From the NCBI GenBank assembly GCA_963971425.1, contig OZ020525.1, positions 16,684,187-16,748,186 on the forward strand: a DNA stretch of 64,000 bases, in the 5' to 3' direction. This document shows, piece after piece, positions 1 through 49,638 of the stretch. A program made the translations under genes and the position numbers. The stretch is from Bryoerythrophyllum caledonicum. Its lineage: Eukaryota > Streptophyta > Bryopsida > Pottiales > Pottiaceae. Below the pieces are notes generated by a model. It saw only the letters and a list, made by a program, of their open reading frames with translations. It had not been told where the DNA came from and ran no database searches. Positions within the stretch are counted from its first letter, which is position 1; each line of letters begins with the position of its first letter.

Positions 1-230
1 GGTCCAGGGTCTACGGTCTAGGGTCTACAGTCTAGGGTCTACGGTCTAGGGTCTAGGGTCTAGGGTCTAGGTTTAGGGTTTACGGTTTAAAGTTCCGGGT
101 TCACTATTTACAATTTAGGGTTTAGGGTTTAGGGTTTCTACTTCACGGTTTGGGGTTGAAGGTTAAGGGTTCACGGTTTACGGTTTATGGTTCACCGTGG
201 AAGGTTCTGGGTTCATGAAGGTCGAGGGCT
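1..230. repeat. degenerate telomere-type repeat tract
   Basis: The stretch consists of variants of a 7-bp unit. GGGTCTA/GGTCTAC variants dominate the first 75 bases and the canonical plant unit TTTAGGG appears in short uninterrupted runs around 112-146. Variants such as GGTTCAC and GGTTTAC continue to about 220. This is the pattern of an old interstitial or subtelomeric telomeric tract; it is too degenerate to be an active telomere end. Because it sits at the window edge I cannot tell whether more telomeric DNA lies to the left. Confidence 0.8.
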
Positions 231-449
231 TATATCACCTTTAAATCTATAAATTAAAAATTTATTGATACTATGAACTATAACCTTAAATTTATCAGTA
301 ACTATAACTTAAAAAAAAACTCGATTCAATAGCGTGTAAGAAAATTTAGCGATAATTGAACTTTAACTATTTAAGACTTTGATACATTATAATTAGTTAG
401 AGGGAGAATAAAGAAGAGAGGGAGGATAATGGATATAATTTTAGAGTAG

Positions 450-705
450 ACTAGCTGTTGGCGCTTGCTTTGCAATGCATTAACCCAACCATTTTTATGT
501 ATTTTTAATATTTAAAAATACTAAAAAATGAAAGGTGGAATGATTCACTGTATAGTTGACACCGCGGTTCAAGTAGTGTTTTTGTAGTTCACAGCATGGT
601 TGACTACGCGATAGTTCACTTTGTGGTTTATTGCGCAAATTATGATTTTAGTACTATGGCTAGGAGTTGGGGCTTGCTTTGCAACGCATTAGTTCAACCA
701 TTAAT
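450..705. repeat. diverged direct repeat in AT-rich DNA
   Basis: A motif of about 38 bases around GGCTTGCTTTGCAACGCATT occurs near 457 and again near 666 in the same orientation, about 209 bp apart, each followed by TTTTAATAT-type sequence. It marks an old tandem dimer. I see no gene between 231 and 880; that DNA is AT-rich and non-coding in all frames. Confidence 0.5.
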
Positions 706-879
706 GTAGTTTTAATATCACAAAATAATTAAGAAGAAAGGTAACAACAAAGTATATATCTCTTTGAAACCTATGCATGATTTAATAATGCAATAGAATA
801 GAATAGAAAAAATAATTTTACTATTTCAATAGTACAATATTAATAACCAAGGATGGATATTGAGTAGGAGGGGTAATTA

Positions 880-2270
880 AAAGTAAAATAAATTAAAATC
901 AAGGAAGAGGGAGAGTAAGGGAAGGACAGTAATTGAGAAGGAGAGTAAGAGAGTGAGAGGAAGGGAGGGATTTATTTTAAAGTAGTTTATATTTTTAGAA
1001 TATGCCACTAGGGGAATTTAGGGAATAAAAAAAAAAGTCAAAATTAGAAAAGAGATGGAGAGGGAGAATAAGGAAGTGAGGGAGAATAAGGGGTAGGGAG
1101 GGAGAATAAGGGATAGGGAGGGAGAGTAAGCAAGGAAGAGTGCGGGATTGTTTTTGAGAGTAGTTATTTAATTTTAGAATGTGAATTTATTGAAAGAAGG
1201 AAAATCCAAAAAAGTAAACTTCAAAAGGAAAATAGAGATGGAGATGGAGAAGGAGAGGAGAGTAAGAGTATAATAAATTAAAAACAAGTAGGGGGGAGAG
1301 TAAGCGAGGGAGAATAAGGCAGAGAGGGAGAGTAAGAGAGGGAGAGTAAGAGAGGGAGAGTAAGGGAGGGATTTATTTGAAAGTAGTTTATATTTTTAGA
1401 ATATGCCACTAGGGGAATTTAGGGAATTAAAAAAAAAGTCAAAATTAGAAAAGAGATGGAGAGGGAGAGTAAGGAAGTGAGGGAGAATAAGGGGTAGGGA
1501 GGGAGAATAAGGGATAGGGAGGGAGAGTAAGCGAGGAAGAGTGCGGGATTGTTTTTGAGAGTAGTTATTTAATTTTAGAATGTGAATTTATTGAAAGAAG
1601 GAAAATCCAAAAAAGTAAACTTCAAAAGGAAAATAGAGATGGAGATGGAGAAGGAGAGGAGAGTAAGAGAGGAAGAGTGCGGGGTTGTTTTTGAGAGTAG
1701 TTATTTAATTTTAGAATGTGAACTTATTGAAAGAAGGAAAATCCAAAAAAGTAAACTTCAAAAGGAAAATAGAGATGGAGATGGAGAAAGAGAGGAGAGT
1801 AAGAGTATAATAAATTAAAAACAAGTAGGAGGGAGAGTAAGCGAGGGAGAATAAGGCAGAGAGGGAGAGTAAGAGAAGGAGAGTAAGAGAAGGAGAGTAA
1901 GAGAGGGAGAGTAAGGGAGGGATTTATTTTAAAGTAATTTATATTTTTAGAATATGCCACTAGGGGAATTTAGGGAATTAAAAAAAAAGTCAAAATTAGA
2001 AAAGAGATGGAGAGGGAGAGTAAAGAAGTGAGGGAGAATAAGGGGTAGGGAGGGAGAGTAAGCAAGGAAGAGTGCGGGATTTATTTTTAGAGTAGTAGGT
2101 TAATTTAAGAATGTGTAATTATTGAAATCACGGGGAGCCTAAAAATTACTAGAATCAAGATTAAAAATGAGATGGAGATGGAGAAGGAGGGGAGAGCAAA
2201 ACATAAATAAGAAAAACAAGTGAGGGAAAGAAGGGAGGGAGTGTAACGGAGAGGGAGATTAAGCTTATTC
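880..2270. repeat. purine-rich nested tandem repeats (GGGAGAGTAAG type)
   Basis: The plus strand is almost entirely purine, built from GGGAGAGTAAG / GGGAGAATAAG units of about 10-12 bp. Over this lies a longer-period repeat. A block beginning with GATTTATTT(T/G)AAAGTAG recurs near 968, 1370 and 1920. A second block with AGTGCGGGATTGTTTTTGAG recurs near 1138, 1538 and 1675, with a partial copy near 2070. The blocks have expanded and shrunk independently. Open frames here (for example 1582-1818) are by-products of stop-poor purine repeats, not genes. Confidence 0.85.
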
Positions 2271-2309
2271 ACTTAAGACGTTTTAAATTCAAGTATGATG
2301 ATTACTCTA

Positions 2310-2368
2310 ATACCCGGTGAACCCGAGTATCTACTGTAGCCATATGTAATACCCAGGAATCCGGGTAT
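2310..2368. other. pair of short hairpins at left side of the palindrome-bearing unit
   Basis: Two inverted repeats lie side by side. At 2310-2330, ATACCCGG pairs imperfectly with CCCGAGTAT. At 2349-2368, ATACCC pairs with GGGTAT around an 8-base loop. They stand where the purine repeat ends and unique sequence begins, so they could mark an old junction. I found no partner near 11 kb, and a terminal-repeat role is only a guess. Confidence 0.35.
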
Positions 2369-2372
2369 CAAT

Positions 2373-3983
2373 ACGTCTTGTCACGCATGCTCACGACATT
2401 GACAATTCATGATTGTGAAATGTACACGTTGTATATGTACGTGATTAGAGCTGATTTTTAAGTTCACCCACTGTCATCATGAGCCGTCACAGCCCTTGAG
2501 CTGTCCAGCTTGTCCCTATCGGGTTAGGGGAACTCCAAGCATCAAACCTTTCTTGCTTTTTATGGGTGTTGTCTTTGTAATGTCGTAGGTAGTGAGCGGA
2601 AGTGGCAGGAGGGGTTTTTTTCGTGGTTTGCGCAGTAGGCGTAAACGCATTAGGTTAGGGCGGTGTGCGCTGTGAGAGGCTGTCGATGTGCGAGGTGAGT
2701 GTTGATAAAAGTGAGGGACATTGAGCATATCGTCCAGAGGTTGTTTCTGGATATGGACTGAAGGTCAGAGAGCAGGACTGGAATAGAGATACTGAAATAG
2801 GATTTTAAATTTAGCGAGGGCCTCGGTTCACGAGCGAAGCTGAAACGACGTTGCGGTTGAGGGTGGCGTCTTCACGAACGACCACGAGGAACGGGTGCGC
2901 CGAATCGGTCAGTGAAGAGGTATGTACTGTCTCACAGATTAAAATTCAGTGTCATCAAATATCGAAGTTTCCCAGGACTGCTTAGAATCAGCACTGGGGC
3001 AGGTGTAGGGTTCGGTAAGCGCCATTAGGGTTCAAGAGAGTCGAGTAATTCTGATGTTGTTAGACGTTGAAGCGGAATTGTAGGGCTTAGGGTATAGGGT
3101 ATTGGTATTCAGTGCATTCAGTATAGAAGGTCCGTAAATGAGCATGTTATGCATGTTATGCGTGTAAATGAGCATGTTATCCGTAAATGAGCAGTGTTGA
3201 AATTTATTTCGCGGAAATCTTGTCAATCAGATGTGGACCTGAAATTCTAGGGCATCTGAAAAATTGTAGAGTTTGTGAGGCTGAGTTGTTGAACGTTGAT
3301 GTCATCCAGAGCTGTGAATTCGCTTCGATCCCGAGGAGTTCCTCGAGGAGGTTGGGAAATGGCGACTGGAGGTGGAACGTCGAGTGAGACATCATGGAAA
3401 GGAGACCGATAAGTCCACAACATTGAACTGTTTTCACTGTGTCCGAGCGACTCTGTGTGGATTCTTTATTTAATTGTGATTCAAGTTTGTTCATTTGATT
3501 CCTAGCGGGTGTATGACAACAAAGTACACTTAAATAATGAAGAGAAACCTCAGAGGATGAGTACTAGAATTCAGATATCTGTTAGGCTATAGTCTATTTT
3601 ATTTTTGATGTCCCATGAACAGAAGTGTATTTCGAATCATGAATTTGTGAGTGATTATGGTATTGTACGAACGTCAGAATGTGCTTGTCCATACTGAGTC
3701 CTTCGAGTCCGGTCCGATTTAATGACAAGAGTAATCCATGTGCAAACGTCACATTTGGCGTTCCATCGGAACATTTGCAGATTCAATTTCCTGTGTGTAA
3801 GGTCGGTTATTGAAAGCATTGTGTAAGCATTTGATTCGTCTCAGTGTGTTTTGTAACTTGAAACATGAATTTTGAGTATGTAAAACTTCCAGTGTAGTAT
3901 GTCAAAGTTCTCTGTGAATGAATGTGAATATACGCGTGATGGTAAGTTGCGATTAGTGCAATGTTAATCCATACTTGCATCAG
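2373..3983. other. stretch without a supported gene
   Basis: The short ORFs on both strands (up to 96 aa at 3204-3494 minus) show no motif I recognise and no convincing splice pattern. A small tandem repeat of AAATGAGCATGTTAT-type units lies at about 3130-3192. The composition resembles the following gene-bearing unit more than the preceding repeats, so part of it may be the 5' flank or an undetected first exon of that gene. Confidence 0.4.
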
Positions 3984-4446
3984 CCGGAGATCTCCGGTTG
4001 CATCCCGAACGGAATACGGAGTTCCAATAATCAACCGGAGATCTCCGGATAATGTCGAGGTATGATGAATCTTGATATATTTTCCCACGATTTAGTAACT
4101 CTCAGAAATATCCGGAGATCTCCGGACGTTACGAAGTAGTGCATATACGTGCGTAGGAAGATGTGAATATCGTGAAACTCGACAATCAGGTCATCATCCG
4201 GAGATCTCCGGTTCAGGACAGAAGTGGCTTCGACTGATACGTATCGAATCGTTCCTGGACGGACGCACACGACACCCGCAAATCAGCCGGAGATCTCCGG
4301 ATACGTTCGCAATGGAATTAAACAAAAACGAACGCCATTGCTGCTCACAATCCGACATAGAGCTGTAGATCTCGGGACTTTTCAAGCATGTTTCGATACC
4401 CCTCACGCCGACTACAGATCGTTCCTGACGAACCGGAGATCTCCGG
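3984..4446. promoter_or_regulatory. array of six identical 14-bp palindromes (candidate protein-binding sites)
   Basis: The exact palindrome CCGGAGATCTCCGG occurs at 3984, 4035, 4112, 4198, 4287 and 4433. Start-to-start spacings are 51, 77, 86, 89 and 146 bp. The copy at 4112 extends to 16 bp (4111-4126, T...A). Flanking bases differ at every copy, so only the 14-bp core is conserved. That argues against simple tandem duplication and for selection on a binding site or repeated insertion of a tiny unit. The array lies immediately upstream of, and overlapping, the first exon of the gene with a ParB-like domain. By analogy with bacterial parS clusters it could be the binding region of that protein; this is inference. 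Confidence 0.65.
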
Positions 4447-6082
4447 CTGAGGTCATGCAAGATACTTCAAGCGATTTAACATCAGTCAGGTGTATGTAGA
4501 TCTGATAATTGTGCGAAGACCTCCCCTAGCTTGGGCAGTAATAAAATAATTTAGAAGCTTGATTTCTATCATCCATCCCTAGGAATGCAGCCGGTTTTGA
4601 GTGACGGACTCTCCATAGGTTATCGGTCAATTGCAGTGATTTCTAACTGCGTTTGTGCTCTTTCGAACTCATCTTGCAGGGATTCGTGGACAACTACACT
4701 TCCGACAGAAAGTCGTCCCGGAAAGCTTGGGGCGTTTGTAGAGTTCTGGCTCCCTAAGTTTGTCTACAGAGGAATTCACAATGTTGGCTACGTCTACAAA
4801 TGCCGAGAGAGCATTACCCAGTGGGGAATGAAGCTCTTGAAAACCCCTGAAGAACCCTGGACATACGTCCCCCAACTTCGGATTGGAAAACGGGGACACC
4901 CCGACATTGGACTCGAGGTTCTAGAGATGCAGGGTCTTGACGACGATGTCTGCCTCCTTGTCGTCTAGGAGAACCTGGACTCATCCACCGAGCCTCTCAT
5001 ATACGGCTTGATTCTGGAGACATCTAAGATTTCGGATGAGATAGCGGAGACATGTCAAAATGAGAACTTCTTATTCAGCCCTCCCACGAGTGATACATGG
5101 AGCCCGGCGTACGTTAATGAGCAGTGGAAGTGGATGGCAGAAGCACAAGAGAAGTCCCGAAAGCCCGTTCCAGACCCGACACCCATTCTGTCCCTGACAC
5201 CAGAATCAACCCCGGGAAGAAAATGCAAGACAACCTCGAAAACTTTGACCCCAGGTTCCTCGTCGCGGGCAGAGAAGGGAAAGAAAGCGAAGGCCGATGA
5301 GCCTGGCCTGGCGATCGAAAAGTGCCTAAACTTCACACAGGTTGACCTCGCCAAAATGAAGAGGACTGAAGTTGAAGCAATTGGCAAGGTTCTGGACGAG
5401 GCGTTCAAGAACATATACATACTCAAGAATAAGCCTTTGACAGTAGAAGACCCTGTCACGAAGAAGGATGTCGTGAAGCTCGTTCATTTCAATAATCTAC
5501 ATAGGGCCCCCCCTGGAGGATTAGTGTACAGGGGCATCCAGAAAGAACGGCTCGAAGGAATCATCAACGCAGTTCGTGCGTCGTCGAAGGCCACGGCCCC
5601 AGAGATTCACATTCGATTCTTGCCACTGAAGAATAAACCTGACGAAACTAAGGTGGAGTTCTTCGCGACCAAACCGACGAAGGAGGACTGCCTTAGGGAC
5701 ACGACACACTTTTACATTATTGGTGGTCAGCATACTGTGGAGGCGCACAAGATCTTGTCACACGAACTGCCATCAACGTGGACGCTCGAAGAAATATCGC
5801 ACTTCTCCATCATCCCGGTTTGGACCAAACCAAACCCCAAAGATATGACCCTGCTACAACTCTCGCGCGCTCTAAACCAAGATCTGACGGGTCTGCGGAA
5901 GGAGCAAAGTTTTACCGAGCAGCTGCAAACGTGCAGAGTGAAGTGGTTTGAGTTCGGGAAACCCGCCCCCCAACTCTATGGTCGTCCACAATCTGACGAA
6001 TTCTCGGTAAGCTTACATCCTCCACCTGAATATATTTCAATTTCATCAATGAGCTCATTCTTCAAGCAACAAATCCAATATA

Positions 6083-6096
6083 CCGGAGATCTCCGG
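6083..6096. promoter_or_regulatory. 14-bp palindrome CCGGAGATCTCCGG in an intron
   Basis: Exact copy, located inside the 122-bp intron (6007-6128) of the ParB-domain gene, 32 bp before the 3' splice site. Its flanks are unrelated to those of the upstream array. Confidence 0.7.
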
Positions 6097-7838
6097 GTGC
6101 TCACACACTAAGTTATATGTTATTGCAGACGTTCCAACGGCAAGTGGTGCCGACGGTTTTCACTCACCTCGGCAAAACTGACCCAAAAGATGCGAAGGTC
6201 CCTCTTCTATTCGAGATGGATGACGCGGTGGTCCAGAAGTGGATCCTAATCGATAGGATGTTCGTCGCTGGACTCCTACCAGACTCGAACGGGAAGACTG
6301 GCGACCCAGCTAAGCTGAAGCGGAAGCCTTTGGTGCAGAACGACTTCAAGCCACTCTATAAAATGCGCGCTGAAGACCTTGACTACCTCGCGGAGTTAGT
6401 GCTCGCGAAGAAGGTCTGTGTGAAGTCCTCCAAAGCGGCAAACCAAGGTACTATGAAAGGGCAGGCCGAGACACTCGAAAACGCGGCGAATAGGGAGAAG
6501 AGAATCTGGGCTATGAAGAATGAACTGATGTTAAATTACAAGCCGCACTCCCTTCCCTCGAAGGCTGCTGACTTCGTCCCTTACACGAAGGAGCAGTGGG
6601 ACGCCTTTGCGGCAGAGTGGGATATTGGACGGGTTCAGCTCGAGTCCTGGGTGAACGCCGCTAATCACTCTGCCAAGGGTAAAGCTTGGCTTGAGGGTCG
6701 ACTGAAGGCGATCAACAAGGAGACCGACCCCACCCCGGACGTCCTTGTGTCCATCTGGAGTCAACACATCGTTGAGGATGCTGCCGAGGCCACACCCACG
6801 GATGACAAGTCCCTGTTCGACTCCAAATACACCTGCAGGGTTATGCCAGAGAGAGGGGGCGAGATCGCCAAAGTACTTATCATGCCGGACATTCAGGAGT
6901 GGCGTAACGTCAATGACCCTCACTTTTACTTCTTTTTCCTCTATCGCGTGAAAGACGACATGCCGTGCACAGGTCCTGGATGCGTTGGACTTCAGAACCA
7001 TTTTCGACCATCTGCAAGTGGACACAAAGGACGGGAGGATGAGGGTTAGATCACCGTCCGTCCTTATCACCGATGTCGCGGGATTCGTTGAATTGAAGAG
7101 GTACATCAGTCTTCAGCAAAGAGAGTCCAGGGGCAAGGTAAAATTGTGGGCGACGCATGTGGTCTACTACTTCCCCCACCCAGGTGATTGGTTTCCGACC
7201 CCAGTAATCGGGGTCGAGGAGGCAGTGTATTGTGTATTCCTATATGAATACGACTCGAGCGAGACGCCAACTCAGTCATTCAAGAGGCTCTACAAAGTCC
7301 ACGCAGACAAAATGCAGGCCTTCTATTCAGCTGCTCAACATCCAGAAACCATCTAGCGCTGGAAGCAAACCGGTGTCCCACAGCTGAGGATCTCGGTCCT
7401 TGATTTGCTGTTCACGGGGTTCATTAGAGAGGATATGGTGGTCGTCAATGTCCATGGTGGACCACATTTAACATACCTCGGATTGGTAAGCAGAACATCC
7501 TTTCCAAGCACTTCAACGTCATAGATTTCTGGTCCGTCTTCAGTTATATGTTTTGAATGTTGCCTTACGCAGGTTTTATCTTGCAGACTCACGACGCGCG
7601 GGTCCTCGAGATTGTGAGCAGCGAAGATGCCAAACTCAAGGCAGAATCCTGCGCAGAAGAAATATTCAAGTACCACTTGAATCTCTTAGCCGACGTACCC
7701 GACGTACCCGACGCCGCTGCAGAGGAGTCAGAGGAGACTGCCATCATTGGGTCAAGCCCAGGCGCTGGTGTTCTAATACGGGCAATGTCGAGGATGAACT
7801 ACAGCGGCGAGGTAAAACAGCTAATAAAACTTCATGAC

Positions 7839-7964
7839 CCGGAGATCTCCGGCTGTTCATATGTTTAGGATGCCCTACATATTTTAGGACTCATATTTCT
7901 CATCGCCTTGCTCAGATATAGTTCACCCGGTAGACATGGACCACTTTGAACCGGAGATCTCCGG
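7839..7964. promoter_or_regulatory. two 14-bp palindromes in intron 4 of the ParB-domain gene
   Basis: Exact copies of CCGGAGATCTCCGG at 7839-7852 and 7951-7964, both within the proposed intron 7812-8034. Finding them in introns as well as upstream shows that they are not coding repeats. Confidence 0.7.
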
Positions 7965-8368
7965 GTGTATTATACCGTTCTCATTTGAATTGCATCCTAA
8001 TGTTCTTCACACTGACTTCGTCAATGTGACGTAGACGCCTGATGCCACGATGATTGAAGTTGATGTGCCGTATGAACCGAGTTCATCAGCGGCACCCAAC
8101 ATTGGGCTCCAGTCCTTGGCCATTGCCGCACGGATCGTCGGTGCGGGCACCCCATCCCACCCCATACAGGTAGACGTTGATGAACCACCTCTTCCAATCA
8201 GGCAAGCCTCGCCTAGTTCGAGAAGCAACTCTACTCCAGCAGCTAGACTCGGTACTTCTGAAAAGGAAACTAGTTGGCATTCCGGCATGCCACGTTCTCC
8301 TTCGCCTGGTCGGGACCATGACACGGCAATGTCCGATCGCCTGGACTTTGACGATTCCCAAAGAGCAC

Positions 8369-8382
8369 CCGGAGATCTCCCG
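8369..8382. promoter_or_regulatory. decayed 14-bp palindrome in exon 5
   Basis: CCGGAGATCTCCCG differs from the consensus at one base. It lies in the coding sequence of the proline/serine-rich region, where it encodes PGDLP. Confidence 0.5.
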
Positions 8383-8965
8383 TTGGCCGACCTTTCGAGG
8401 ACGCGTCCATTAGTGGAGGTTGTGTGCAAGAGTGCCGAAGACTTGACGTTGCGTGACACCGATCAAACGATGGATGAGGCGTCGGCGCAGTAGACATTGC
8501 GTGAATTACATGCTATGAGCCCTCTACGCAGCCCTCCGCGGAGCTACGGGCAACTGGCTCAAAAAGAGAAGAAAAAAGCAATCGCGAAGAATCCTACGGC
8601 GAAAGCTCCTCCACCTCCACCTACAATTCGGACAAGGGCCCAAAAAGATAAGGTGAATAGTTACTTGTGCATTAAACCTTCTTCATTGTTCTAAGGACAG
8701 ATCACTCGATGCAGACCTTATTGTTACCACTTCGTTACTCGTATTCAGGGGTCCGCAGGATCAACACAGTCGAAGGATGTCGGTGACAGAAACCCCGCAC
8801 AGACTGCTCAAGTTTCTGGTGTAGCTCAGACTTCTAGGGATACTCCACCTACTGTCCCAGGTGCCTAATATGTACATTCATACTTATGTGCCATCATCTA
8901 TATTGTGCTCATTTTTCCATGGAGAAATTCTGGATTGTGAGTGCAGAACACTTCTATATGTATAA

Positions 8966-9703
8966 TTGAAATTTCACTTTGCTGAACAACTTCCTCATCT
9001 CAGTCTACGTACTCGTATTTTGGGTTCAGGTTCGACGAAGCCTACTACGATCGTCCGAGAGCCTCCAACCGAGGATCAGGTAACATCCAATCGGATTTAT
9101 CATGTCGTGTTTGACTTAAATGGAGTTCTTGTGCACAGGGGGGAATTCAAACAGGGACAACCGAGAGACATCAAAGTAAGGCCTGGTTCCACTGAACTCC
9201 TGAACTTCGTGGGAGAGAAGGCTACTGTCTCATTCTGGAGCATTGTGTTGGAAAAGAATATTGTGGATATTATCAAGGAGTTGCGTAAGAAAGGTGCTGT
9301 CATTCCGGAAAGCGTCACAATCCTGACGCAGGCCCATTGCACAAAAGCATCATATACGCTCCCATCCCATCCATCGAAGCCAATTTTCCTTAAGGACCTG
9401 ATAATTTATAACGCCAAGACGTGGCCCAGGTCTTCCAAGGATGTCTTGCTTGTGGACGATACTCCACTAAAGAACGTCTTTAACGATACATTCAGCGCAG
9501 TTCATCGGCCATCATGGACTGGGAATTCGAAAGATACCTGGTTGTCCACCATTTTTCTCCCATGGCTCTCTGGACTGCTAGCGTCAAATGAGGATGTTCC
9601 TGACTTTGTTAGACGTCATCCATTGATGTTTGCCAGTGATCCAGTAGACAAAAATTCCAAAGAGGCCCGGTCCGTGGTGAAGGGCATAATTTCGGCTCCT
9701 TAG
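8966..9703 (+). CDS. FCP1/NIF-type HAD phosphatase-like protein or C-terminal exon
   Basis: The 245-aa ORF contains a HAD domain of the FCP1/NLI-interacting-factor class. Motif I reads FDLNGVL at about residues 49-55, a serine in FWS follows, and the acid pair LLVDDTP sits at about residue 161. Active FCP1/SCP phosphatases have DxDx(T/V) in motif I; here the second Asp is Asn, so ordinary phosphatase catalysis is doubtful and a binding or regulatory role is possible. Plant relatives with a DLNG motif are known to me only as a general class. A 3' splice site TTGGGTTCAG at 9020-9029 gives an exon 9030-9703 that joins the preceding gene in phase, so this may be the C-terminus of the ParB-domain protein. 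The ORF itself is uninterrupted and ends with TAG. Confidence 0.65.
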   Translation: MKFHFAEQLPHLSLRTRILGSGSTKPTTIVREPPTEDQVTSNRIYHVVFDLNGVLVHRGEFKQGQPRDIKVRPGSTELLNFVGEKATVSFWSIVLEKNIVDIIKELRKKGAVIPESVTILTQAHCTKASYTLPSHPSKPIFLKDLIIYNAKTWPRSSKDVLLVDDTPLKNVFNDTFSAVHRPSWTGNSKDTWLSTIFLPWLSGLLASNEDVPDFVRRHPLMFASDPVDKNSKEARSVVKGIISAP

Positions 9704-9951
9704 AACAATGAATTATACTAGTTATTTTAAACTCTATGCTTTGTAAATGTTACGTCAAGGATGTCTGTGGGATTTCGACCATTCAATTTTGAAGATAAAT
9801 GTTGTTGTCAGTAACGTTATTTGTTGAGGTCCTTCTTTTTATTTGTTATTGTTAGTGTCTCGCCCCCAAGCTTCACCTTCCAATATCTGTGATCACTTCT
9901 GAGTATTCTCCTGACCATTTCGACTACCGAACGTTGGTCTGAGAGGGTCAC

Positions 9952-9965
9952 CCGGAGATCTCCGG
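9952..9965. promoter_or_regulatory. 14-bp palindrome between the FCP1-like ORF and the next ORF
   Basis: Exact CCGGAGATCTCCGG, about 250 bp after the FCP1-like stop and about 93 bp before the proposed exon at 10059. The rest of 9704-10058 shows no gene. Confidence 0.7.
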
Positions 9966-10058
9966 TCGAATTCGTGTCACTTGAACTCCTCCTACCGTAT
10001 TTTCTCCTCATTCCAATGCTCTATTTCTAATTCGATGGTCTTGCCTTCTTATTTGCAG

Positions 10059-10508
10059 GTCATAATCATATCACTCCGCGGTCCTCTCTGCTCGGACGAG
10101 GTCCTTGACTCGGCCAAATCCCGCTCCACGCAGCTGCCTTCCTTTGATGACACGGCAGATGTTATTCGAATACTACTGCGGTATTTCAATGTCGGGATCT
10201 GGTCTCCTATGCGTCCAGATAGGCTCATGGAGGCGGCCCAATTGTTATTGCCCCCAGACATCTTATCAGATATTCTTTTTTGCTATGCCAGCAAACAGAC
10301 TCGAAGGCCCACCTATGTTAGGTTTCTCCACATCTTCAAGAAGGCTTCATTTAATCCTCGAACAAGACATTATTTGTGGCCCAAATGTGTTGTTGCAGAT
10401 CTAGATCCATTCAAGAATCCTAGAAAGGCTATAGTTCATTATCTAACTTATGGGAGACACCATACAGGATGGGTAGAGGGCATCTGTAAAGCACTTAAAT
10501 TAGAATAG
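10059..10508 (+). CDS. orphan ORF or terminal exon of about 150 codons, unknown function
   Basis: A polypyrimidine tract ending CTTATTTGCAG (acceptor at 10057-10058) precedes an open frame that runs to TAG at 10506-10508. The continuous frame also extends upstream to 9981. The product is rich in Arg, Leu and aromatic residues, with no transmembrane segment or signal peptide. I recognise no domain. It lies inside the palindrome-bearing unit, on the same strand as the two preceding coding regions. It may be a second gene whose first exon I cannot place, or a read-on exon of the same transcription unit. Confidence 0.4.
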   Translation, partial: VIIISLRGPLCSDEVLDSAKSRSTQLPSFDDTADVIRILLRYFNVGIWSPMRPDRLMEAAQLLLPPDILSDILFCYASKQTRRPTYVRFLHIFKKASFNPRTRHYLWPKCVVADLDPFKNPRKAIVHYLTYGRHHTGWVEGICKALKLE

Positions 10509-10624
10509 TTGAATCGATTTTCCATAGATTACACGCGCCTCTTAGCAACGGCCACCCCTCATTTATTGTATGACACTTTTTTATAATGAAATAGTTTAGT
10601 ATTGGACTCTTACTCTCATTTCAT

Positions 10625-10810
10625 CCGGAGATATCTGGTTGCATGTTCTATCAATTGTGAGTGTTTTCTGTCCGTAGCTCTGTCCCAGTTTTCCCTACCA
10701 CATTTTTCCTAACCACACATTTGTGATGTACAGTATGTCCATCAATTTCTGTTCTCAGGACTCGGTTCTTCTTCTGAATTCCACCTTGATATTTACCCGG
10801 AGATATCCGA
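10625..10810. promoter_or_regulatory. two decayed palindromes at the right side of the unit
   Basis: CCGGAGATATCTGG (10625-10638) and CCGGAGATATCCGA (10797-10810) are variants of the 14-bp palindrome with ATAT in place of ATCT plus one or two further changes. A half-site-like ATCTCCGGAT follows near 10961. No gene is supported between 10509 and 11026. Confidence 0.5.
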
Positions 10811-11026
10811 CTGCATGCTGCGGACTCACGTATTGTCTAAATTCAAATTTGGTCGCTCTAGCCATTTCTTCCTTCATAAGTGTCATTGGTGATGCATTTA
10901 ATGCTTGAATAGTACTCTAAACTCCTCGACTTTTATGCTTCACTATCTTTTATGAGGCACATCTCCGGATCTATCTTTTAGTCCTTAGTCCAAAATTCAC
11001 CTCATAGTCCAGAAATAGTTAAATAT

Positions 11027-12950
11027 GGCATCCTTGACTCCCAACCGATTCCAAGACAACACCTGCTCTCCAACAACCCTAAATCTAGGTCTCTACAACA
11101 AGAAATAAAATTGTGAGGACCTTTATAAGAGAAAAGTGCATAAAGGAAAAGTCCTTAAAAAGAAAGTATGTAAAAAAAAGTGTATAATGGAAAAGTGCAT
11201 AACGAAAAGGAAAAGAATAGCAGACGAATTTTCCAAACACAACAACCTCACGCAAAGTCTAAATCAAAAGCCTGAACTAAAATATCAATAACTAAATAGG
11301 CAGGATTCAAACTCAATTTAAACATGCAAATGCCAAGTTATTGTAGCAACATTAACAGAAGTTAAAAACAACTTAAAGAAAAATAACTCACGCATTCTAA
11401 ACAACACAGAATTGAGACCACAATTTTACAAAAACATTCAAGCATACACATGCTCAAACAGTCTAGAAGCAAGAACAATAAATGAAATGAAGTTGAACAA
11501 GATGACCTTCAACTGCAGCACTAGAATTGAGACAAAAAAGAAAACACCCTAAATCAAACTAGAAAGAAAAGACAATAAGGTAGAGGCACCCAATTCCAAT
11601 TGGCCACCCAATTACAATTAGTAGAGTATGCATAAAATGGTACGTGAAGCGACCCAAAACCGATAAGTCAAAATCTGAAAACCCTAGCCATTATCGGCAT
11701 TGGATCATGAAGTGTGCAATTTTGGGTTGCTACACCTCAATGGAGCTTTCATCAATGCCTTGCCTCGAAAGTCCAACAAGGCCAATCGACATTGGGTACC
11801 TCCATGAGTTGGTTATCCATGGCATGTCTTCTCTCTTTTACTAACTATCACCTCTTGGCATTGGGCAAAGGAAGGCACCAAATCTCACTTACCCTATGGT
11901 TTGATTATGGACTCCGGTGGTTTTTGGGCTTTTAAATTCTATATCAATTCCAAATCTTTGAGGTTAAATTTGAATTTTTTTTTGTCGAGTTTCATTCCTA
12001 ACTCCGCATCTTTCTAGATAAATGTTTTTGACATACAATGTCATTCGAGTCCCCAACTGACTAAACCCTTTACCGCCCAGGGATGTTGAATATGGAAAAA
12101 CCATGATTTCTGCTGATTTTTTTTCTTTGAACCGGATTTGATGGAAATACAATGTGTAGTGTTAATATCTAACCTTACAAAAATGAACTTTATCCATAAC
12201 CTGAACTTTGGGAAAATTTTGCACAACATCCAATGGTTGATGGAATAGATTATAGTGTTTTAAGTTACCATATATTGGTATTAAAAACTCTAGAATTTAG
12301 AAAGTGTACTACTTTAACCATCAATAGATTCTTGCAAGAATTTTTGTACTTTGAATTAGAGTGGTTTACATGTGCACTAGGTTGATAGCTTTGCACTGAC
12401 ATCTCATATGTGAAGAAAATATTTATACCTAATTATTGGTGATTTTTGTGCTTCTTTCTACTTGATTGTATACAAAAATGTTCCAACCTTATACGAATCA
12501 AAACAGAAGTTTTGTATGTGAGGAGAGAGATCAACAATCACATATCAGTGAAGAATGTCTTAAAGATGAAGTTCAATCAAAATTAAGATCAAAATCAATG
12601 TGCATGTGTGAGAAATACATTATAGTATGTGACATGATATTCACTGTATTCACTATATCTGTTTATGATATATTGTGTTGTATTCCTTGCTTTTCCAAGA
12701 GTTCAATAAATCCAAATCATGATCTGATTGTTGGAGAGTGTTCATGTAATGTGTGCGCAAATATGGTGCCTCCACCTTAGAAGAAGTGAAACTGCCTCAA
12801 CTGAATCCGAGAGAGCAATACCAATCACTTCCAAGAACAGAGTTACTTGATCGCACCAGCACAATGCAAATCGTTGCAAACGCGCACGAGAACCAGGTCA
12901 AAGAAGTCTGTAAACTAGGATGGAGAGAACAACCTTCACCGCAACCACCA
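11027..12950. other. AT-rich non-genic DNA at the start of duplication copy 1
   Basis: Only short ORFs occur (for example 11644-11844), and their frames are not preserved in the partner near 46470-46650, so I do not call genes. The AT-rich segment 12060-12770 is absent from copy 2 and contains a dispersed repeat (see 12600-12775). Confidence 0.6.
12600..12775. repeat. dispersed repeat, member 1
   Basis: A segment ending with GTGTGCGCAAATATG matches segments near 19790-19925 and 54070-54215. Shared signatures include CATGATCTG and GAGTGTTC(A/T)TGTAATRTG. The member here is more diverged and marks the right end of the sequence that only copy 1 carries. Confidence 0.6.
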
Positions 12951-14560
12951 ACTCTAGAATCGTAAACCTCGGAGTCCACAGCTACGCAAGCACCAACCAA
13001 AGCTCTCGCTCGCCGTCAACCTCCGCACGGCACAAACAAAGAAGCATATCCCGGACCAACTGCACACCCAATCAAAGAAAGAAACGTCGAATCCAGATCC
13101 CATGAAACCCTAAGTATCGCAAGAACTCAAACTCCATCACTTTCCCTCATTCTGGCTCAACAAAGTGAAGATTTCTTGAGCTAATGCACACGCAATCGAC
13201 GAATCCAGACCATCCCTAGAGCGCATGAAACCCTAATCATCGCAAAAAAATATTACATCGGCGTCTCCTGGTTTCGATCGAGTTTACAGAAAATGAAGCG
13301 CTCCGGTTCCAGCCTGCGTGGCTGTTTTTCACTTAACTTACCTCCTTGGGTATACGCCATAGCTGCGGCTGGTCGATCGATCGGCACTCCTCCGCAATGG
13401 ATCACAATGCTCGAAGATCAGACGAGGATCACGTCAATCACTGTATTGCAATGTACGTAAACCACGACCACAAGAACAAGCAGCGCCGCAAGAAAACCAA
13501 GACGCTGCATCGAGAGCACTCCGCAAACTCATCCGGATGGCGCGAACGAACAAATGTAAAAAGAACCACGGAGAGTGCTGATCAAACCTCGATTTCAACT
13601 TCAGAACCTCCCGAACAGGTAATTAGCAATTAACCTCTGTTGTTTCAAAGAGCGAAACAAATCCGAGCAGAGTGCAGAACAGATCTCTCGAATCTGCCTC
13701 CGTTGTTTCCTGAAACCCTAAGACCTTGTAACTTAGTCCTCACACGCTGCGAATTGTATATTTTCCAGAGATCTGAGCGACAATCAAGCTTTCCCTACCA
13801 AAATTGAGAATCTCTGAGGTATTTCAACGGCAGCGTAGCTATTGAGAATTTCGACAACGTGACGGAGCTGATATTCATGTAGATTACAGTCGAGATGACT
13901 TACGGCTGAGTGCATTTGACGGAGGTTGATGAAGGGACCTCTCGTCTAACTATTTCAATGAACTGCTACCGCACGAACGATATGTGATGCGTCCATCAAA
14001 CCCGTCATCAAACGAATATTGTCCATCTGTTCAACGAAATGCGTTGCGGACACCGAGACCGTCGTTGGACGAATACCGTCCATATATGAAACGAACTTCG
14101 TTGGTTTTGCGCCTTCTTACCCAAGAAAACTCCGACGAGAGAGAGACAACAGAGGTTTTCGCGAGGTTTTGGGAGGATACGATATTGCGTGCCTGGAAAT
14201 CGTTGTTTTCTCGAGTTTTCAAGGAGATTCTGAACTTTCAGCTGCAGCCGATCGCAACAATGCTGAGCTCGACTTCGAAGGTCCAAATTCTGGGGAGTGA
14301 TGGCGACGTTGTTGCAGTGTTCGTGGCCATGGATCGCCGCTCCCAAAGACGGCGACACAGCGACTCCTGCGTCGCGCCCGCGCCGGCAGCGGCCTCCTCG
14401 CGTCGACCTTCGTAGACTTCTGGACCGCGCTGCAGTGGCCAATTCCGACTCTTCCTCTTCTGCAGGTAGTGTGCTTGTTGTCAGGGTTTAAGGGTAGAAG
14501 CTGTTGTGGAAATGTAATCGTTAAACGAGGCAAGGACTCCATGAGTTTTGACATCTTTTC
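12950..14560. other. GC-richer conserved segment of duplication copy 1 without a firm gene
   Basis: The segment is well conserved in copy 2 (about 47080-48830). It contains several AAACCCTAA telo-box motifs and plausible splice donors on both strands, for example CAAGGAG|GTAAGT on the minus strand near 13350. The longer ORFs (13346-13633 plus, 13984-14415 plus, 14008-14442 minus) are not kept intact in the other copy: the plus-strand ORF at 13984 is interrupted by a deletion there. It may be an old promoter or first-exon region; I cannot name a product. Confidence 0.4.
13418..13510 (-). CDS. possible 30-aa hydrophobic micro-ORF (duplication copy 1)
   Basis: On the minus strand an ATG opens a 30-codon frame starting MQRLGF, followed by a run of about 13 Ala/Leu/Val residues and a Cys, and ending in TGA. 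It resembles a secretory signal peptide. The same frame is unchanged at 47686-47778. It could be a real small secreted-peptide precursor with further exons, or a chance frame opposite basic-residue codons. No downstream exon was established. Confidence 0.15.
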   Translation of the reverse strand: MQRLGFLAALLVLVVVVYVHCNTVIDVILV

Positions 14561-15209
14561 GCACTTCTAAGTATTAGAATTCAGCCCCCTCAATAATTCA
14601 CAAATCATCTACAATTGAAGGTCCTGGCTTGTTGTTAGGGTTTAAGAGATGGAGATGTTTGGAGCTGGTTCTGAAATTGTAATTGACTTGGGGTTATTTG
14701 TAAAGTGTGGTTGTGATTGCTTCATGCACCACCTGAAGATCAGGCAGGGGCCTCTCCCCCGAGGGAGGGAGCCTGGATAGCATCAGAAATATACAATACC
14801 ACCAAACGGAGCGATTATGCCCGCGCCACGAGTGCAATCAAGCTCATGCGAGACAACGTCAGTCCCTGAACCACTGCGTCCCCGAATCACGAGACAATAC
14901 GTGAGCATTGAAAAGGAGCATCGGGATTCATGCACCACTATCGGTGACATGAATAATATCTAAGGATTCAGCCGACAACTTAGTGCGTGACCACCTCATT
15001 GGTCTACAGATTCTTTCATCTACTTTGGCACGTGAACTAGCGGGCTGAACCTACATGGCATAACCACTAGTAAGTTCTGATCTTCAATAGCCACCTTCAT
15101 TTACACCACGGGCATCTAGACACATTTCATCAAACAACATGGTACTCAAGAGGCTGTTGTGAAGCAAATCTGTGAACAAGTTTCGTCGTGTTCAAAAAAT
15201 AATATACAA
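14561..15209. other. downstream flank of PAL copy 1
   Basis: No gene is supported. The segment is collinear with about 48820-49465 of copy 2 with scattered substitutions, in contrast to the almost identical DNA that begins at 15210. Confidence 0.5.
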
Positions 15210-15382
15210 TGCAGAATGAGCTTGCCCAATGCGGGAAGAATCCGTCATCTCGCAACCAGAAGTAGATCTCCGAGATGTACCATGCTAAGATGAGATCAGC
15301 TGAGATGGATTATTTACAGGACTGCCTGCCTCAAAGAATAGTTTCTACTTGTACTGGAATCAAAATTGGGGAAGTGAAATTC

Positions 15383-17515
15383 TCACTGTCGTTGAGCTGG
15401 AAAAGGTCCGGGGGCGCCGTTCCATCCCTGCACGCATCGGAGAAGAGGGCGGATGAGCTTGCCCTCGGACATGGCCTCGAACACCTTCTGGATCTCGGTT
15501 CCGGGCGACACGGTCCGCAGCCCAGACAGGAGCTGCGTCCCGAGCTCGCCCCGCACGAATTCATACAATGGATACGTTCTGCAGCTGTGGATCCTGTTGG
15601 CGACGGAAGACAATCCCTTGTTGTCGTACGCTTCTCGGACGATCGGCACCACGATGCGCAGCCGCTCCTGCACCTCAGCTTCGAAGGCGGGGATCTGGGC
15701 GAACACAGAGCTGGAGGCGTCCTTGTTGACTAGCTTGAGCGCGTGGGAGATGAGCGCCGCGCGCAGCTTCTCCATCAAGGGGTAGGATTCGCTGGCGGCG
15801 TCGTCGATGTACGAGAAGACGGGCTGGCGCTCGACGACGAGCAGGAGGTCCTTCTCGCAGAAGCGCGAGGGGAGGAGCGTGCCGTCCTTGCTCATGAACA
15901 GCGTCTTCTTGGCTGCTTGCGAGACGACCTGCTTCACGGCCGCCTGCATGGTTTCCTCCACATGGCGGAGGTCGATGGCCTGGCAGAGCGCCACCAGGAA
16001 CGACGAGCTCATGAGCTTGAGAATCTCCACGGCCTCCTCGGTTTTGCGCGCGGACACGAGCCCCAGGGAGTTCACGTCCTGGTTGTGCTGCTCGGCGCTC
16101 TGGACGTGCGTGGTGACCGGGTTGGCGAGGTAGTTGAGCTCGGAGAGATACGACGCCATCGCGATCTCGGCGCCCTTCATGCCGTAGTCGAGGCTGGGGT
16201 TGGGGCCCCCGGAGAGGTTGGAGGGCAAGCCGTTGTTGTAGTAGTCGTTCACGAGCTCGCTGAACTGCGCGAACATGAGCTTGCCGATGGCCGCCACCGC
16301 GAGCCGCAGGTTGTCCATGGAGACCCCGATGGGTGTCCCTTGGAAGTTGCCGCCGTGGAGCGCAATGCCTCGCGCGGCGTCGATGATGGGGTTGTCGTTC
16401 ACGGAGTTGATCTCGCGCTCGATGGCGTGGGTCGCAGCGCGCACCACTTCGACCTGCGGCCCGAGCCACTGCGGGGACGTGCGCAGCGCGTACCGGTCCT
16501 GCTTCGGCTTCTTCAAAGGATCGGTCTCGTTCACCTTGGCGGCGGCCTTCATGAAATCGCTCCCATCCAAGAGCCACTCCATCACGGCCGCGGCCTCCAT
16601 CTGCCCGGGGTGATGCTTCAGCTTGTGCGTCAACGGATCAGCGAACTCCGGCTTCCCCTGCATCACCTCGCAGAAGAGCGCGGACAGAACCTCGGCGAGG
16701 AGCGCGAGCAGATTCGCGTCGAAGCAGACGGTGGACGCCAGCGCAGACCCCACCGCGGTGCCGTTCACGAGCGCCAGCCCTTCCTTGGGCTGCAGCTCGA
16801 ACGGCTTCTCGACGCCGGCGATGCGCAAGCCCTCCAGGGCGGACACCTCACGTCCGTCCTCCGTGATGGCGACGGAGTTCGGGCGCGCGGTGAGCAGCCC
16901 GGCGATGTACGACAAGGGCACCAAGTCGCCGGACGCCGTCACGGTCCCGCGCAGCGGCAGCTTGGGCGTGACGTGCGCGTTCAGGAGCTTCTCCATGGCC
17001 GCGAGAATCTCCCACCGGATGCCCGAGTAGCCCTGCATCAGCGTGTTGGTGCGCACCAGCATTGCGGCGCGGGCGGTCTCGGCCGGCAGCGAGTGGCCCT
17101 TCACGAGCACGCCCGCGTTCAGGAAGCGGATGAGCTCGCGCTGGAGCTCCACGCCCTGCTGCGTGCGGCGGTGCGACGTGGCGCCGAACCCCGTGGTGAC
17201 GCCGTAGATGTCCCCGCCGCTCATGATCTTGCTGAGCACCCAGTTGGACGACTCGTCCACCCTCGCCTTCGCATTGGCCGCGTCCAGCACGACCTGGACC
17301 TCCGGCCTGCGCGCTATGGCGGTCACTTGGCCCACGGTCAGGTTCACGCCCTCGATCGCGACCTCGTCGGAGTCGAAGTATGTCGCCACCATGCGCTTGA
17401 TCTCGTCCAAATGGTTGCCTTCCATGGCCGCCGCTGTCTTGGCCCAGTTGAGGGGATCCGCGCCGACTGATCCATTGCAGAAAGCCGCCTCATCGAGCTT
17501 CATCTGTGGAGCCAT
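15383..17515 (-). CDS. PAL: phenylalanine ammonia-lyase, copy 1
   Basis: An intronless 710-codon gene encoding a full-length PAL, the usual plant length. The enzyme deaminates L-Phe to trans-cinnamate, the entry step of phenylpropanoid (phenolic, lignin-like, flavonoid) metabolism, in the cytosol as a tetramer. The Ala-Ser-Gly triad that cyclises to the MIO prosthetic group is at residues 194-196 within [11 protein letters not shown]. The catalytic-loop Tyr is about residue 104 ([13 protein letters not shown]), and Phe131-Leu132 (RFLNAG) is the Phe-selective rather than Tyr-selective pair. NDNPIID and the C-terminal shielding region are present. The start is the first ATG, in the context GAGCCAT read on the plus strand. 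The coding sequence is much richer in GC than its surroundings. The only protein difference from copy 2 is one Ile/Leu exchange near the C-terminal third. Confidence 0.97.
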
Positions 17516-17768
17516 AGAGCTCAGTGTGCTGCACTTTGTCCAATTAGAAACCTCTCAGCCTGTGATGTCCCAGGATGCTGAATATTTATCTCTGGCTAAA
17601 GAGTTGATCTTAGAAATCTCTACAGAAACGAACGATTGAAGCACCTCGACTGAGATCGATGAGGAGCTGGAATGTGAGACCAAGGACATATATGAGAATG
17701 AATGATCGAAGCGCCTCGACTGAGATGAGGTGTTGGAGTGTGAAGCCAAGGATTTACATGAGAATGGA
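17516..17768 (-). promoter_or_regulatory. PAL copy 1 promoter with tandem repeat
   Basis: On the minus strand a TATA-like GATAAATATT (17581-17590) lies about 66-75 bp upstream of the ATG, giving an expected short leader of about 35-40 nt. Further upstream two direct repeats of about 65 bp (17634-17699 and 17704-17765) share GAAGC(A/G)CCTCGACTGAGAT and CCAAGGA and are spaced 70 bp apart. A sequence with an ACGTGAC core follows near 17782. No transcription start is proven. Confidence 0.5.
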
Positions 17769-18009
17769 CACGGAGAGAAACGACGTGACTTTGAATTCCA
17801 AGGCGACTGTGGGGTCGAATGGGGCTTGCATGACGACGTCCGCGATTCCTTTCGTAATCTCGGGGCACACTTTTTGACCTCTCAATGAGAAAGTTCAGAA
17901 AAAGGGGGGCCGTCAACGTGGTGACGTCCGTAAAATTGTAGTAAACAGTTGAGGGCTTGAACCGCCAGTGCGTTGTTGGATGAGTTATTGACCTGGAGTC
18001 GTCTTCATT

Positions 18010-19093
18010 ATGGGAGCCCAGTTGAAAATACAGGGTGACCTTTTCCGAGCTCGACTTTCAGATTCTCTGACTGTTCATGCTATTGGGGTGAAGAATGATT
18101 TGTGGTTTCCTTTCCTCGGCGCTGTTCATGGACGCGCTCTGCCGCGACGACAAATCACGGAGCTCGCTGAGAGAATATTCGCCTGACCAGGCTACCAATA
18201 CAGCTCTCACCATCTCTGGAAAAGGATGAGACTCCACAGTTTCGCACCCTTTTCGTGGATCATATTGGACAAGACACCGATGGTGCGTGAAGTTTTCTGG
18301 GGTGATGCACTGATGTACAAGTGTGAAGTATTCCTGGCGTTCGGCATCGCTTTGGTATCCCTCATGCTAGGTGGACGTACTGCGAGGCTGGGATGGGTGA
18401 GGGTATGCTGGTGAGGATGTGGGAGTCTGGTTGTGAGTTTGATTTGGAGCCTGATGGAAAGAGTGTACAAATCTAGTGAACATCGGAAGTAGTTTCGGTG
18501 GTCCTTCAATAGTAAACTCCATTTAGTATATTTTGCAACTCATTACCAAACTCCCGGTTCTTACCGCCTGACTCCTACCCTTGAGTGATACCTCTAGTGT
18601 TTGTCCTTCGTGGTCAACCATGGCAAGTCAAGTTTCGTCTGCTGGTGTCGTCTGGCCACGTCACCAAAACCGCTCCTCCATCCTAGAGTTTCAGTGACTT
18701 ATCAGCACGTTGAGTGCACTGGAAGTTCAGGCTCTAAAACGTGATTTTCGTGAACTCTGTGAATTTTATGAATTTCGTAAATTTACCGCTTTTGTCATGG
18801 GGGCCATTATCATCCAATGCATCTTCTACCTCGTCTGCAAGTCGTATCACCAGGAAATCATCGACTAGGCCGCGTTGGCGGAAGTATTGGATGGCTACCT
18901 GAGAGATTACTTGCCCGTCACTGGACCTGCAAACTCACTCGGCGCTCTAGATGCCGAGCTAGAAGAGATTTGATGCAAATATGGAGTGAAGAATTTAATC
19001 GTGGTAAGGTCTGATCAGTTCTAGAACTTTCCTAGTATCCCATTCACGGAGATTCTAACTGAAGAGGACACCTACTGTGTCGTCGTTTACTGA
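18010..19093 (+). pseudogene. decayed protein-coding remnant upstream of PAL copy 1
   Basis: Fragments of protein-like reading frame follow one another on the plus strand: a 58-aa frame starting MGAQLKIQ (18010-18186), a frame around GSSFGGPS, one starting MASQVSSAG, and one containing DYLPV. All are disrupted. Compared with the partner at 52273-53360, an in-frame TGA (after AELEEI) is shared, while copy 1 has extra lesions such as TAG in place of a Trp codon near 18867. The gene was therefore already dead before duplication and has decayed further. I do not recognise the family. Confidence 0.45.
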
Positions 19094-19209
19094 GGACGCC
19101 GCACAAGTCTACTCACCTCGACGTTTCCTTCCTCATCTTTATATTAGACTGAAACGAAGGCTTGGCGCTCCTACAGCATGATTGGCAATGTTTGGCAAAC
19201 AGACGGTCG

Positions 19210-19671
19210 CTATGTTATTTTGTTCATGCATCGATAACTGGGTGTGTTCCAAGTTGGCAGGGGTGAGACGAGATTTGCGATCCAGGTTGATCTGTTTGGG
19301 TTGATTGATCGTGGGATAGCTGGCAAGGAGACTTGACCCAGGCTCATGGTGTTAGGGCACTGGTTGTTGTTGTTGCAGCATGATAATCTCCCGCGCGTGC
19401 TGAAAGGTTGTTGTGCCTGCTCTGAATAGAAACCTCTTCCACGTGCCTTCTCCACCATTGTCGCGAACTTGGACAGATCCTCCAAGAGGCACTGAACTAC
19501 TGCAACTTTTGACAAGTTTTGACAGAGGGAAAGTGATACAGAGTTCGTACACACGTCGACAATGGTAAAGGCATTCTTCAACACGTCTTGGAAGCCATTC
19601 ACCAAAGACCAATGACAAATCAATGAAGGTACGTGTAACTTCAGCTCAAGCGATGTTTCGATGACAACCAC
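19210..19671 (-). pseudogene. conserved minus-strand reading-frame remnant
   Basis: A 153-codon frame on the minus strand includes helical-looking sequence such as SVSLSLCQNLSKVAVVQCLL, followed by a Gln-rich stretch. The partner near 53520-53889 keeps much of this peptide but changes frame in several places (different N-terminus and C-terminus). A former coding exon is likely; a functional gene is unlikely. No family was recognised. Confidence 0.3.
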
Positions 19672-19789
19672 TTCAAGCGCAACGACATTGAACTAACCTG
19701 CATTGAATGGAACAAATCCAGATGCCACAACAACTGGTAAAGACTCATTGAGAGAAGGCTCACTACTCCAGTTTTCTCTTCAACATAGT

Positions 19790-19925
19790 ATGTGGCATGG
19801 TATTCATTGTATTTTTGTGTATTTTATGTACTTTGCATTGTATTCCTAGCTTTTCCATGAGTTCTATTCCTCCAACTCATGATCTGGATTTAGTAGAGTG
19901 TTCTTGTAATATGTGCGCAAATATG
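19790..19925. repeat. dispersed repeat, member 2
   Basis: Matches 12600-12775 and 54070-54215. The relation to 54070 is explained by the segmental duplication; the relation to 12600 is an independent copy. Confidence 0.6.
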
Positions 19926-48830: not shown

Positions 48831-49638
48831 ATTATTATCAGCCCCCTCAATAATTCACAAATCATCTACAATTGAAGGTCCTGCTTGTTGCTAGGGTTTA
48901 AGAGATGGAGATGTTTGGAGCTGGTTCTGAAATTGTAATTGACTTGGGGTTATTTGTAAAGTGTGGTTGTGATTGCTTCATGCACCACCTGAAGATCAGG
49001 CAGGGGCCTCTTCCCCGAGGGAGGGAGCCTGGATAGCATCAGAAATATACAATACCACCAAATGGAGCGATTATGCCCGCGCCACGAGTGCAATCAAGCT
49101 CATGCGAGACAACGTCGGTCCCCGAACCACTGCGTCCCCGAATCACGAGACTATACATGAGCACGTGAGAGGAGCATCGGGATTCATGCACCACTATCGG
49201 TGACATGGATAATATCTAAGGACTCAGCCGACAACTTAGTGCGTGACCACCTCATTGGTTTACAGATTCTTTCATGTACTTCGGCAAGTGAACTAGCGGC
49301 CTGAACCTACATAGCATAACCACTAGTAAGTTCTGATCTTCAATAGCCACCTACATTTACATCACGGGAATCTAGACACATTTCATCAAACAACATGGTA
49401 CTCAAGAGGCTGTTGTGAAGCAAAACTGTGAACAAGTTACGTCGTGTTCAAAAAATAATATACATTGCAGAATGAGCTTGCCCAATGCGGGAAGAATCCG
49501 TCATCTCGCAACCAGAAGTAGATCTCCGAGATGTACCATGCTAAGATGAGATCAGCTGAGATGGATTATTTACAGGACTGCCTGCCTCAAAGAATAGTTT
49601 CTACTTGTACTGGAATCAAAATTGGGGAAGTGAAATTC

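Follow-up and report, generated by a model that had tools for sequence, protein, structure and literature searches.

The palindrome array of a moss transposon

A 64,000-nucleotide stretch of the genome of the moss Bryoerythrophyllum caledonicum (GenBank assembly GCA_963971425.1, contig OZ020525.1, positions 16,684,187 to 16,748,186; hereafter the window, which lies on a 22 Mb contig) contains an array of copies of one 14-bp palindrome, CCGGAGATCTCCGG, upstream of and within a gene whose predicted product carries a ParB-like box. This region belongs to a giant DNA transposon that is present in many copies and has recently been amplified. The element has well-defined ends, and its palindromes and the gene with the ParB-like box, here called the accessory gene, are conserved beyond their surroundings. 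On balance we favour the explanation that this is a Sola-like transposon, and that the palindromes are putative sites for a protein encoded by the element, probably the accessory protein, with a role as operators or in anti-silencing.

The array lies within a giant transposon

The palindrome occurs ten times exactly in the window, at positions 3984, 4035, 4112, 4198, 4287, 4433, 6083, 7839, 7951 and 9952, and there are three near copies, with one or two mismatches, at 8369, 10625 and 10797. No exact or near copies are found in the 64-kb window outside 3984-10810. In dinucleotide shuffles of the window the mean number of copies was 0 for exact matches and 0.11 at up to two mismatches. The site count and the shuffle controls thus confirm the original prediction, made from the sequence alone, of ten exact and three imperfect palindromes confined within the window to this region. 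Ranked by count, CCGGAGATCTCCGG is the leading 14-bp palindrome of the window, with 10 occurrences compared to 4 for the runner-up, which consists of AT runs. The spacing of the sites ranges from 51 to 2001 bases and their flanks differ, so that they are not tandem repeats.

Seven copies of the element were compared, designated A, B, C, E, Y1, Y2 and the window copy. They came from four clusters of sites on contig C1, from two loci found via the ParB-like exon, and from the sequence to the left of the window; two of them are without one end. All five two-ended copies start with ATGC and end with GCAT, with an inverted terminus of about 25 bp in common, and all five are flanked by a perfect 4-bp target duplication (TAGG, ACAA, ATTG, CCAA and AAGG, the last at the window copy), which differs between all five loci. 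Because it has inverted termini together with locus-specific 4-bp repeats, the element is a DNA transposon that duplicates its target. Its length ranges from 16,555 to 19,010 bp across the five two-ended copies.

The window copy is the longest, at 19,010 bp (C14:16676208-16695217). Alignment with the six other copies and a search for the terminus place its share of the window at 1..11031, on the minus strand if the strand of its DUF7869 gene is followed; the remaining 7,979 bp, which include the DUF7869 gene, extend leftward beyond the window. The terminal inverted repeat at 11006..11031 ends in ..GGCAT, and the same terminus is found in the other copies, inverted at the far end. It is followed at 11032..11035 by the target-site duplication, which reads CCTT here and AAGG on the opposite strand and is repeated at the far end. 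The right-end 36-mer has 139 exact matches in the genome (77 and 62 on the two strands). The bounds first proposed for the feature, 3984..10810, were therefore too narrow. The accompanying idea of a selfish unit for segregation or transposition is supported in that the unit is selfish and transposing and the palindromes are tied to it, but is not supported as regards segregation: the five two-ended copies are integrated insertions, and no ParA was found among the open reading frames (ORFs) of the element that were scanned, which do not cover every ORF.

The right terminus holds a further palindrome, TTTCTGGACTTTGCAAAGTCCAGAAA, in A, B, C, E, Y1, Y2 and the window copy (with one change in B). 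It was not seen at the left terminus of the copies examined, and the two ends are therefore not equivalent. The centre of the element is rich in repeats and free of the 14-bp palindrome. Part of it occupies 1..2300 of the window, with telomere-like TTTAGGG variants and a purine-rich minisatellite of the GGGAGAGTAAG type at 1-200 and 880-2260. Copies Y2 and B have the same central motifs, and in these two and the window copy the repeat-rich centre contains no exact palindrome. Copy C is 92% identical to the window copy and 87% to Y2 in its left part, and 93% identical to Y2 and 84% to the window copy in its right part, as if two subfamilies had recombined.

Distribution and placement of the sites

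In the 437 Mb genome there are 2718 exact copies of CCGGAGATCTCCGG, compared to 3 for a reversed-pattern control. A variant differing by one base, CCGGATATCTCCGG, occurs 663 times (control 0). The ratio of the two, 4.1, is close to that in young single copies of the element, which have 14-16 and 3-4 exact sites respectively. Fifty of the 2718 sites were listed by position, and all fall in the four contig C1 clusters, with similar internal spacing. These fifty and the ten of the window are among 96 exact palindromes placed within the seven element copies, against 0 in 62,511 flanking bases. The original prediction had proposed that a palindrome scattered over the genome independently of the gene would count against a connection between the two; the palindrome is indeed common, but all 96 placed sites are inside the element. 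In 7.5 kb at a DUF7869 gene of a different kind there are no such palindromes (a single locus, at which element ends were not found), and matches to the accessory protein at this locus do not go below E 2.9. A literature search found no paper that carries CCGGAGATCTCCGG as plain letters.

Copies with both ends contain 14-16 exact palindromes each, along with four variant sites. In the copies examined the variant sites lie within about 425 bp of each end, two per end: at one end CCGGATATCTCCGG is found about 222 and 394 bases inward, and at the other about 375 and 140 bases inward, the site at 140 being inverted, with single changes in some copies. The window sites at 10625..10638 and 10797..10810 match subterminal places in other copies (for the latter, in A, B, C, Y1 and Y2) and are therefore slightly changed forms of CCGGATATCTCCGG, each with one further change in the window copy, and not simple decay. 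The site at 8369..8382 is exonic and reads CGGGAGATCTCCGG on the other strand; all six copies that cover it have the variant, five identically and the sixth with one further change. Hence the mismatches in what had been described as three decayed copies are real, but these are variants shared across element copies, two of them subterminal and one exonic.

Six of the exact window sites form a cluster (3984..4446) upstream of the first recognised accessory exon, and five of the six are also covered by an alignment of 35 copies. On the basis of copy alignment and intron assignment, the site at 6083..6096, exact in 29 of the 35 aligned copies, lies in intron 1 of the accessory gene, and those at 7839..7852 and 7951..7964 lie in intron 3. 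The last, at 9952..9965, is identical in all six copies compared. Copy Y2 has a similar layout: five exact sites precede the first recognised accessory exon, the introns hold three, and one lies beyond the NIF frame described below. Its other seven comprise three upstream of the main DUF7869 frame (with the start taken as in copy A), one that reads through this frame, one near the frame end, and two past the gene. The placed sites are thus mostly non-coding, the exceptions in Y2 being one exonic variant and one exact site within the DUF7869 frame.

Conservation of the sites

Divergence at the sites was compared with that of 80-base flanks in 24 site rows, each covering 6-7 copies. It is lower at the site in all 24 (0.00-0.10, against 0.05-0.27 for the flanks), with the proviso that rows were chosen for having at least one exact copy, which favours low divergence somewhat. 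A Wilcoxon test on 22 of the rows gives P 2e-5; the two left out, in which the segments are missing from most copies, are also below their flanks. In a comparison of Y2 with the window copy at the sites that are exact in Y2, there are 5 mismatches in 294 bases, where the background (coding sequence included) predicts 45. One branch is clean by choice, and with the expectation accordingly halved to 23 mismatches P is 9e-6. The number of identical sites between these two copies is 16 of 21, where 17.5% is expected before any such halving (P 7e-9).

The alignment of 35 copies, which covers six sites, gives a diversity of 0.013-0.061 at the sites and 0.084-0.136 in the flanks, all six sites being lower. 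Among the full-length near-palindrome words of this alignment (gapped or unalignable words were excluded) there are 36 changes, of which 30 are transitions; 35 fall within the four outermost bases of an arm (CCGG) and one is at position 10. Such a pattern would be expected from later decay at methylated cytosines. Being less divergent than their flanks, the palindromes appear to be under selection, and this conservation is the strongest evidence that they serve the element.

The accessory gene

The accessory gene is on the plus strand of the window, opposite to the DUF7869 gene, and hence opposite to the transposase if that is what the DUF7869 gene encodes. Its first recognised exon (4681..6006) contains the ParB-like box and is interrupted by a stop in the window copy and open in others. 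It is followed by exon 2 (6129..7485), the frame of which is broken in the window copy, exon 3 (7587..7811), exon 4 (8035..8652), predicted to be a low-complexity linker, and exon 5 (8749..8860). A NIF phosphatase domain (PF03031; Pfam E 9.7e-14 in the window copy) follows on the same strand at 9030..9703, either as a separate gene or as the final exon. In copy Y2, removal of four in-phase GT-AG introns of 96-223 bases yields an open run of 1210 codons that begins with the first recognised exon. A fifth GT-AG intron, also consistent in phase, would link exon 5 to the NIF domain, for a total of 1434 codons, and the accessory gene may therefore be spliced to this domain. The splice sites are predicted from sequence, and neither the true first exon nor the start was found.

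In the window copy the gene is disrupted by one or more stops and a change of frame; intact copies exist elsewhere. The ParB-like exon has at least 150 matches in the genome at 86-100% identity (the best 150 of 1205 first-look candidates), and for a piece of exon 2 at least 150 matches were scored, from 432 candidates. For the ParB-like piece eleven copies tie in score, and a frame of 590 residues is open in nine of these, a pattern that indicates recent spread. Over the 35 copies, diversity in exon 1 is 0.043, 0.035 and 0.099 at codon positions 1, 2 and 3. The lower diversity of the first two positions indicates that the accessory protein was under selection while the element spread.

The box GGQHTVEAHK, which had been noted in the gene product, is indeed there, in an open frame at 5722-5751. 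Inspected by eye, the order YIIGGQHTVEAHK ... IIPVWTKP ... LNQDLTGLRKEQ in the product resembles the blocks of ParB. Membership of the ParB family, which had been proposed on this basis, is not supported by profile searches. ParB_N (PF02195) is without a match in this genome but is picked up in 10 of 14 control genomes; a Pfam search at E 10 with 932 residues of the accessory protein returned neither ParB nor methyltransferase; and NCBIfam, PHROGs and PDB sequence searches gave nothing relevant for the ParB-like part. In an hhalign comparison with the YbdM family the two boxes align on one another, weakly (probability 0.5%, E 0.11), and the best BLASTP piece is the same box, again weak at E 5.2. 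Pairwise scores against two canonical ParBs are no better than shuffles, and a single-sequence AlphaFold2 model of the protein is unusable, with a predicted local distance difference test score of 32.7. No relatives of the ParB-like piece were confirmed in viral contigs. Exon 2 gave two weak MutL matches in the PDB (E 0.25), which were taken as chance.

These profile results are compatible with a diverged ParB fold or a diverged methyltransferase, and ParB identity is best regarded as a lead at the level of motifs. The lead gains some weight because the Sola1 element of Ectocarpus is described as having a ParB-like gene on the opposite strand (PMC12477816).

The DUF7869 gene

The DUF7869 domain was recognised on one strand of the element at E 1.8e-39 and 3.6e-35 in two copies. 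The gene has D..D..E-like residues, as judged by eye, and we take it for a putative transposase. No relatives of the DUF7869 piece were found in viral contigs, and the literature search found no mention of DUF7869 in papers. The domain is very numerous in this genome: there are 3612 first-look candidates, and all of the best 150, which were scored, are above the cut-off, many with open frames of about 1066-1087 residues. This abundance amounts to a large expansion of other elements, of which the palindrome-free DUF7869 locus described above is one example.

Other features of the window

The window also contains a 7.4 kb direct duplication, at 13093-20453 and 47342-54744, the two parts being 95% identical. 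Each includes an uninterrupted gene of 710 codons for an aromatic amino acid lyase (PF00221). A Copia-like retrotransposon is located at 56915-61183 on the minus strand. One of its open frames holds RVT_2, and a further frame, upstream of this, looks by eye like gag-integrase. The lyase genes, the telomere-like TTTAGGG motifs and this retrotransposon fit a plant origin of the sequence, though they do not prove it.

Comparison with known systems

Sola transposons are described as having a 4-bp target duplication and terminal inverted repeats, as exceeding 15 kb in some cases, and as being present in the moss Physcomitrella (PMC10741241, PMC9033089, PMC4455052). The element described here has the 4-bp duplication and inverted termini in all five two-ended copies, and by its duplication and architecture we call it Sola-like; its putative transposase is recognised only as DUF7869. 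A more specific comparison is offered by Sola1-1_Ec32 of Ectocarpus, a 21.5 kb Sola1 transposon with a ParB-like/methyltransferase gene on the opposite strand, whose authors suggest that the protein may bind and modify its own transposon and mention similar proteins in green and red algae (PMC12477816). As far as the published descriptions go, both elements are giant (16.6-19.0 kb here) and have a large accessory gene opposite the transposase (a putative one here), with a ParB-like box here and a ParB-like domain there. They differ in that the Ectocarpus protein is reported to have a methyltransferase, whereas here there is no profile match for one at Pfam E 10, and a NIF phosphatase domain follows. 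The string 'Palindrom' does not occur in the main text of PMC12477816.

The VANDAL elements of Arabidopsis encode VANC anti-silencing proteins (PMC5735166, PMC10398659). VANC21 is reported to bind a 9-base motif enriched in the non-coding parts of its own VANDAL element, and to cause loss of methylation (PMC5735166). The likeness to the present element is one of layout: in both, short element-specific motifs lie mostly in non-coding sequence beside an accessory gene of the same element.

Possible functions of the palindromes

The presence of conserved sites in mostly non-coding parts beside the accessory gene, recalling VANC21, leads us to favour binding by a protein that the element encodes, either a regulator or an anti-silencing protein. 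We suggest that the accessory protein, with its ParB-like motif, binds the internal palindromes and, once bound, would either open or mark the chromatin of the element or regulate its promoters, as VANC does on VANDAL. Five or six of these sites are just upstream of the first recognised accessory exon, and three are upstream of the main DUF7869 frame; the remaining internal sites are in introns and 3' regions. The two one-base-variant sites near each end would more likely be used in transposition.

Several points weigh against this interpretation. Both the protein that binds the palindromes and the effect of binding are inferred, and all the sites could instead be bound by the DUF7869 protein. 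The profile searches returned neither ParB nor methyltransferase, and no search labelled DUF7869 as Sola, there being no Sola profile among the models used. Only 96 of the 2718 sites have been placed, and isolated sites beyond the element may exist. The VANC motifs, as described, are tandem and are not 14-bp palindromes, while the sites here are dispersed. Finally, when the halving described above is applied to identical sites, the 16 of 21 compare with an expected 42% and P rises to 0.0015.

The main rival explanation, possible but in our view distinctly less probable, is that all the palindromes are sites for the DUF7869 transposase, namely subterminal repeats that have spread inward and serve to assemble the transposition complex of a large element. 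Subterminal repeats are bound by transposases in other plant DNA transposons, and the two variant sites within about 425 bp of each end would fit. However, the majority of the sites lie well away from the ends, within introns and upstream of genes; those at the ends are a different, one-base variant; and the one different DUF7869 gene has no palindromes in 7.5 kb, albeit at a single locus. The upstream clusters and the conservation would also fit a regulatory element bound by a host transcription or chromatin factor that the transposon exploits. Such a factor should also have sites at host genes, so that the occurrence of 96 of 96 placed sites (of 2718 in the genome) in the element, and of none in the 62,511 flanking bases, makes this explanation improbable.

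The earlier reading, a eukaryotic segregation system resembling ParB/parS, now seems very improbable. As in the bacterial system, palindromes adjoin a gene with a box of the G-x-H/R type, but there is no ParB_N or NCBIfam match and no partition context, the copies being integrated with target duplications and the scanned ORFs without ParA. It is equally hard to regard the palindromes as neutral baggage, for example a scattered repeat in horizontally acquired DNA. The very high copy number might be explained in this way, but not the divergence below that of the flanks in 24 of 24 site rows and at six of six sites over 35 copies.

A more elaborate version of the proposal that the accessory protein binds the palindromes can be put forward as a speculation, and we consider it rather unlikely. 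The protein would be a diverged ParB-methyltransferase fusion with a catalytically dead methyltransferase half, which reads the GATC-centred palindrome and coats the element to keep it open, while the subterminal variant sets the ends apart for the transposase. The loss of catalytic motifs in the methyltransferase half is a reading of two stretches by eye; the one-base change in the subterminal variant removes both the symmetry and the GATC. If this were true, a plant transposon would have an addressing code that distinguishes self from non-self, and body from end.

The site is exact, long and abundant, and binding should therefore be simple to test. If the accessory protein does bind the palindromes, the ParB-like accessory proteins that giant transposons carry would gain a defined target; the description of the Ectocarpus element offers a role for them only as a possibility (PMC12477816). 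Sequence-specific control exerted by a plant transposon would then be known in two kinds, this one and that of VANC.

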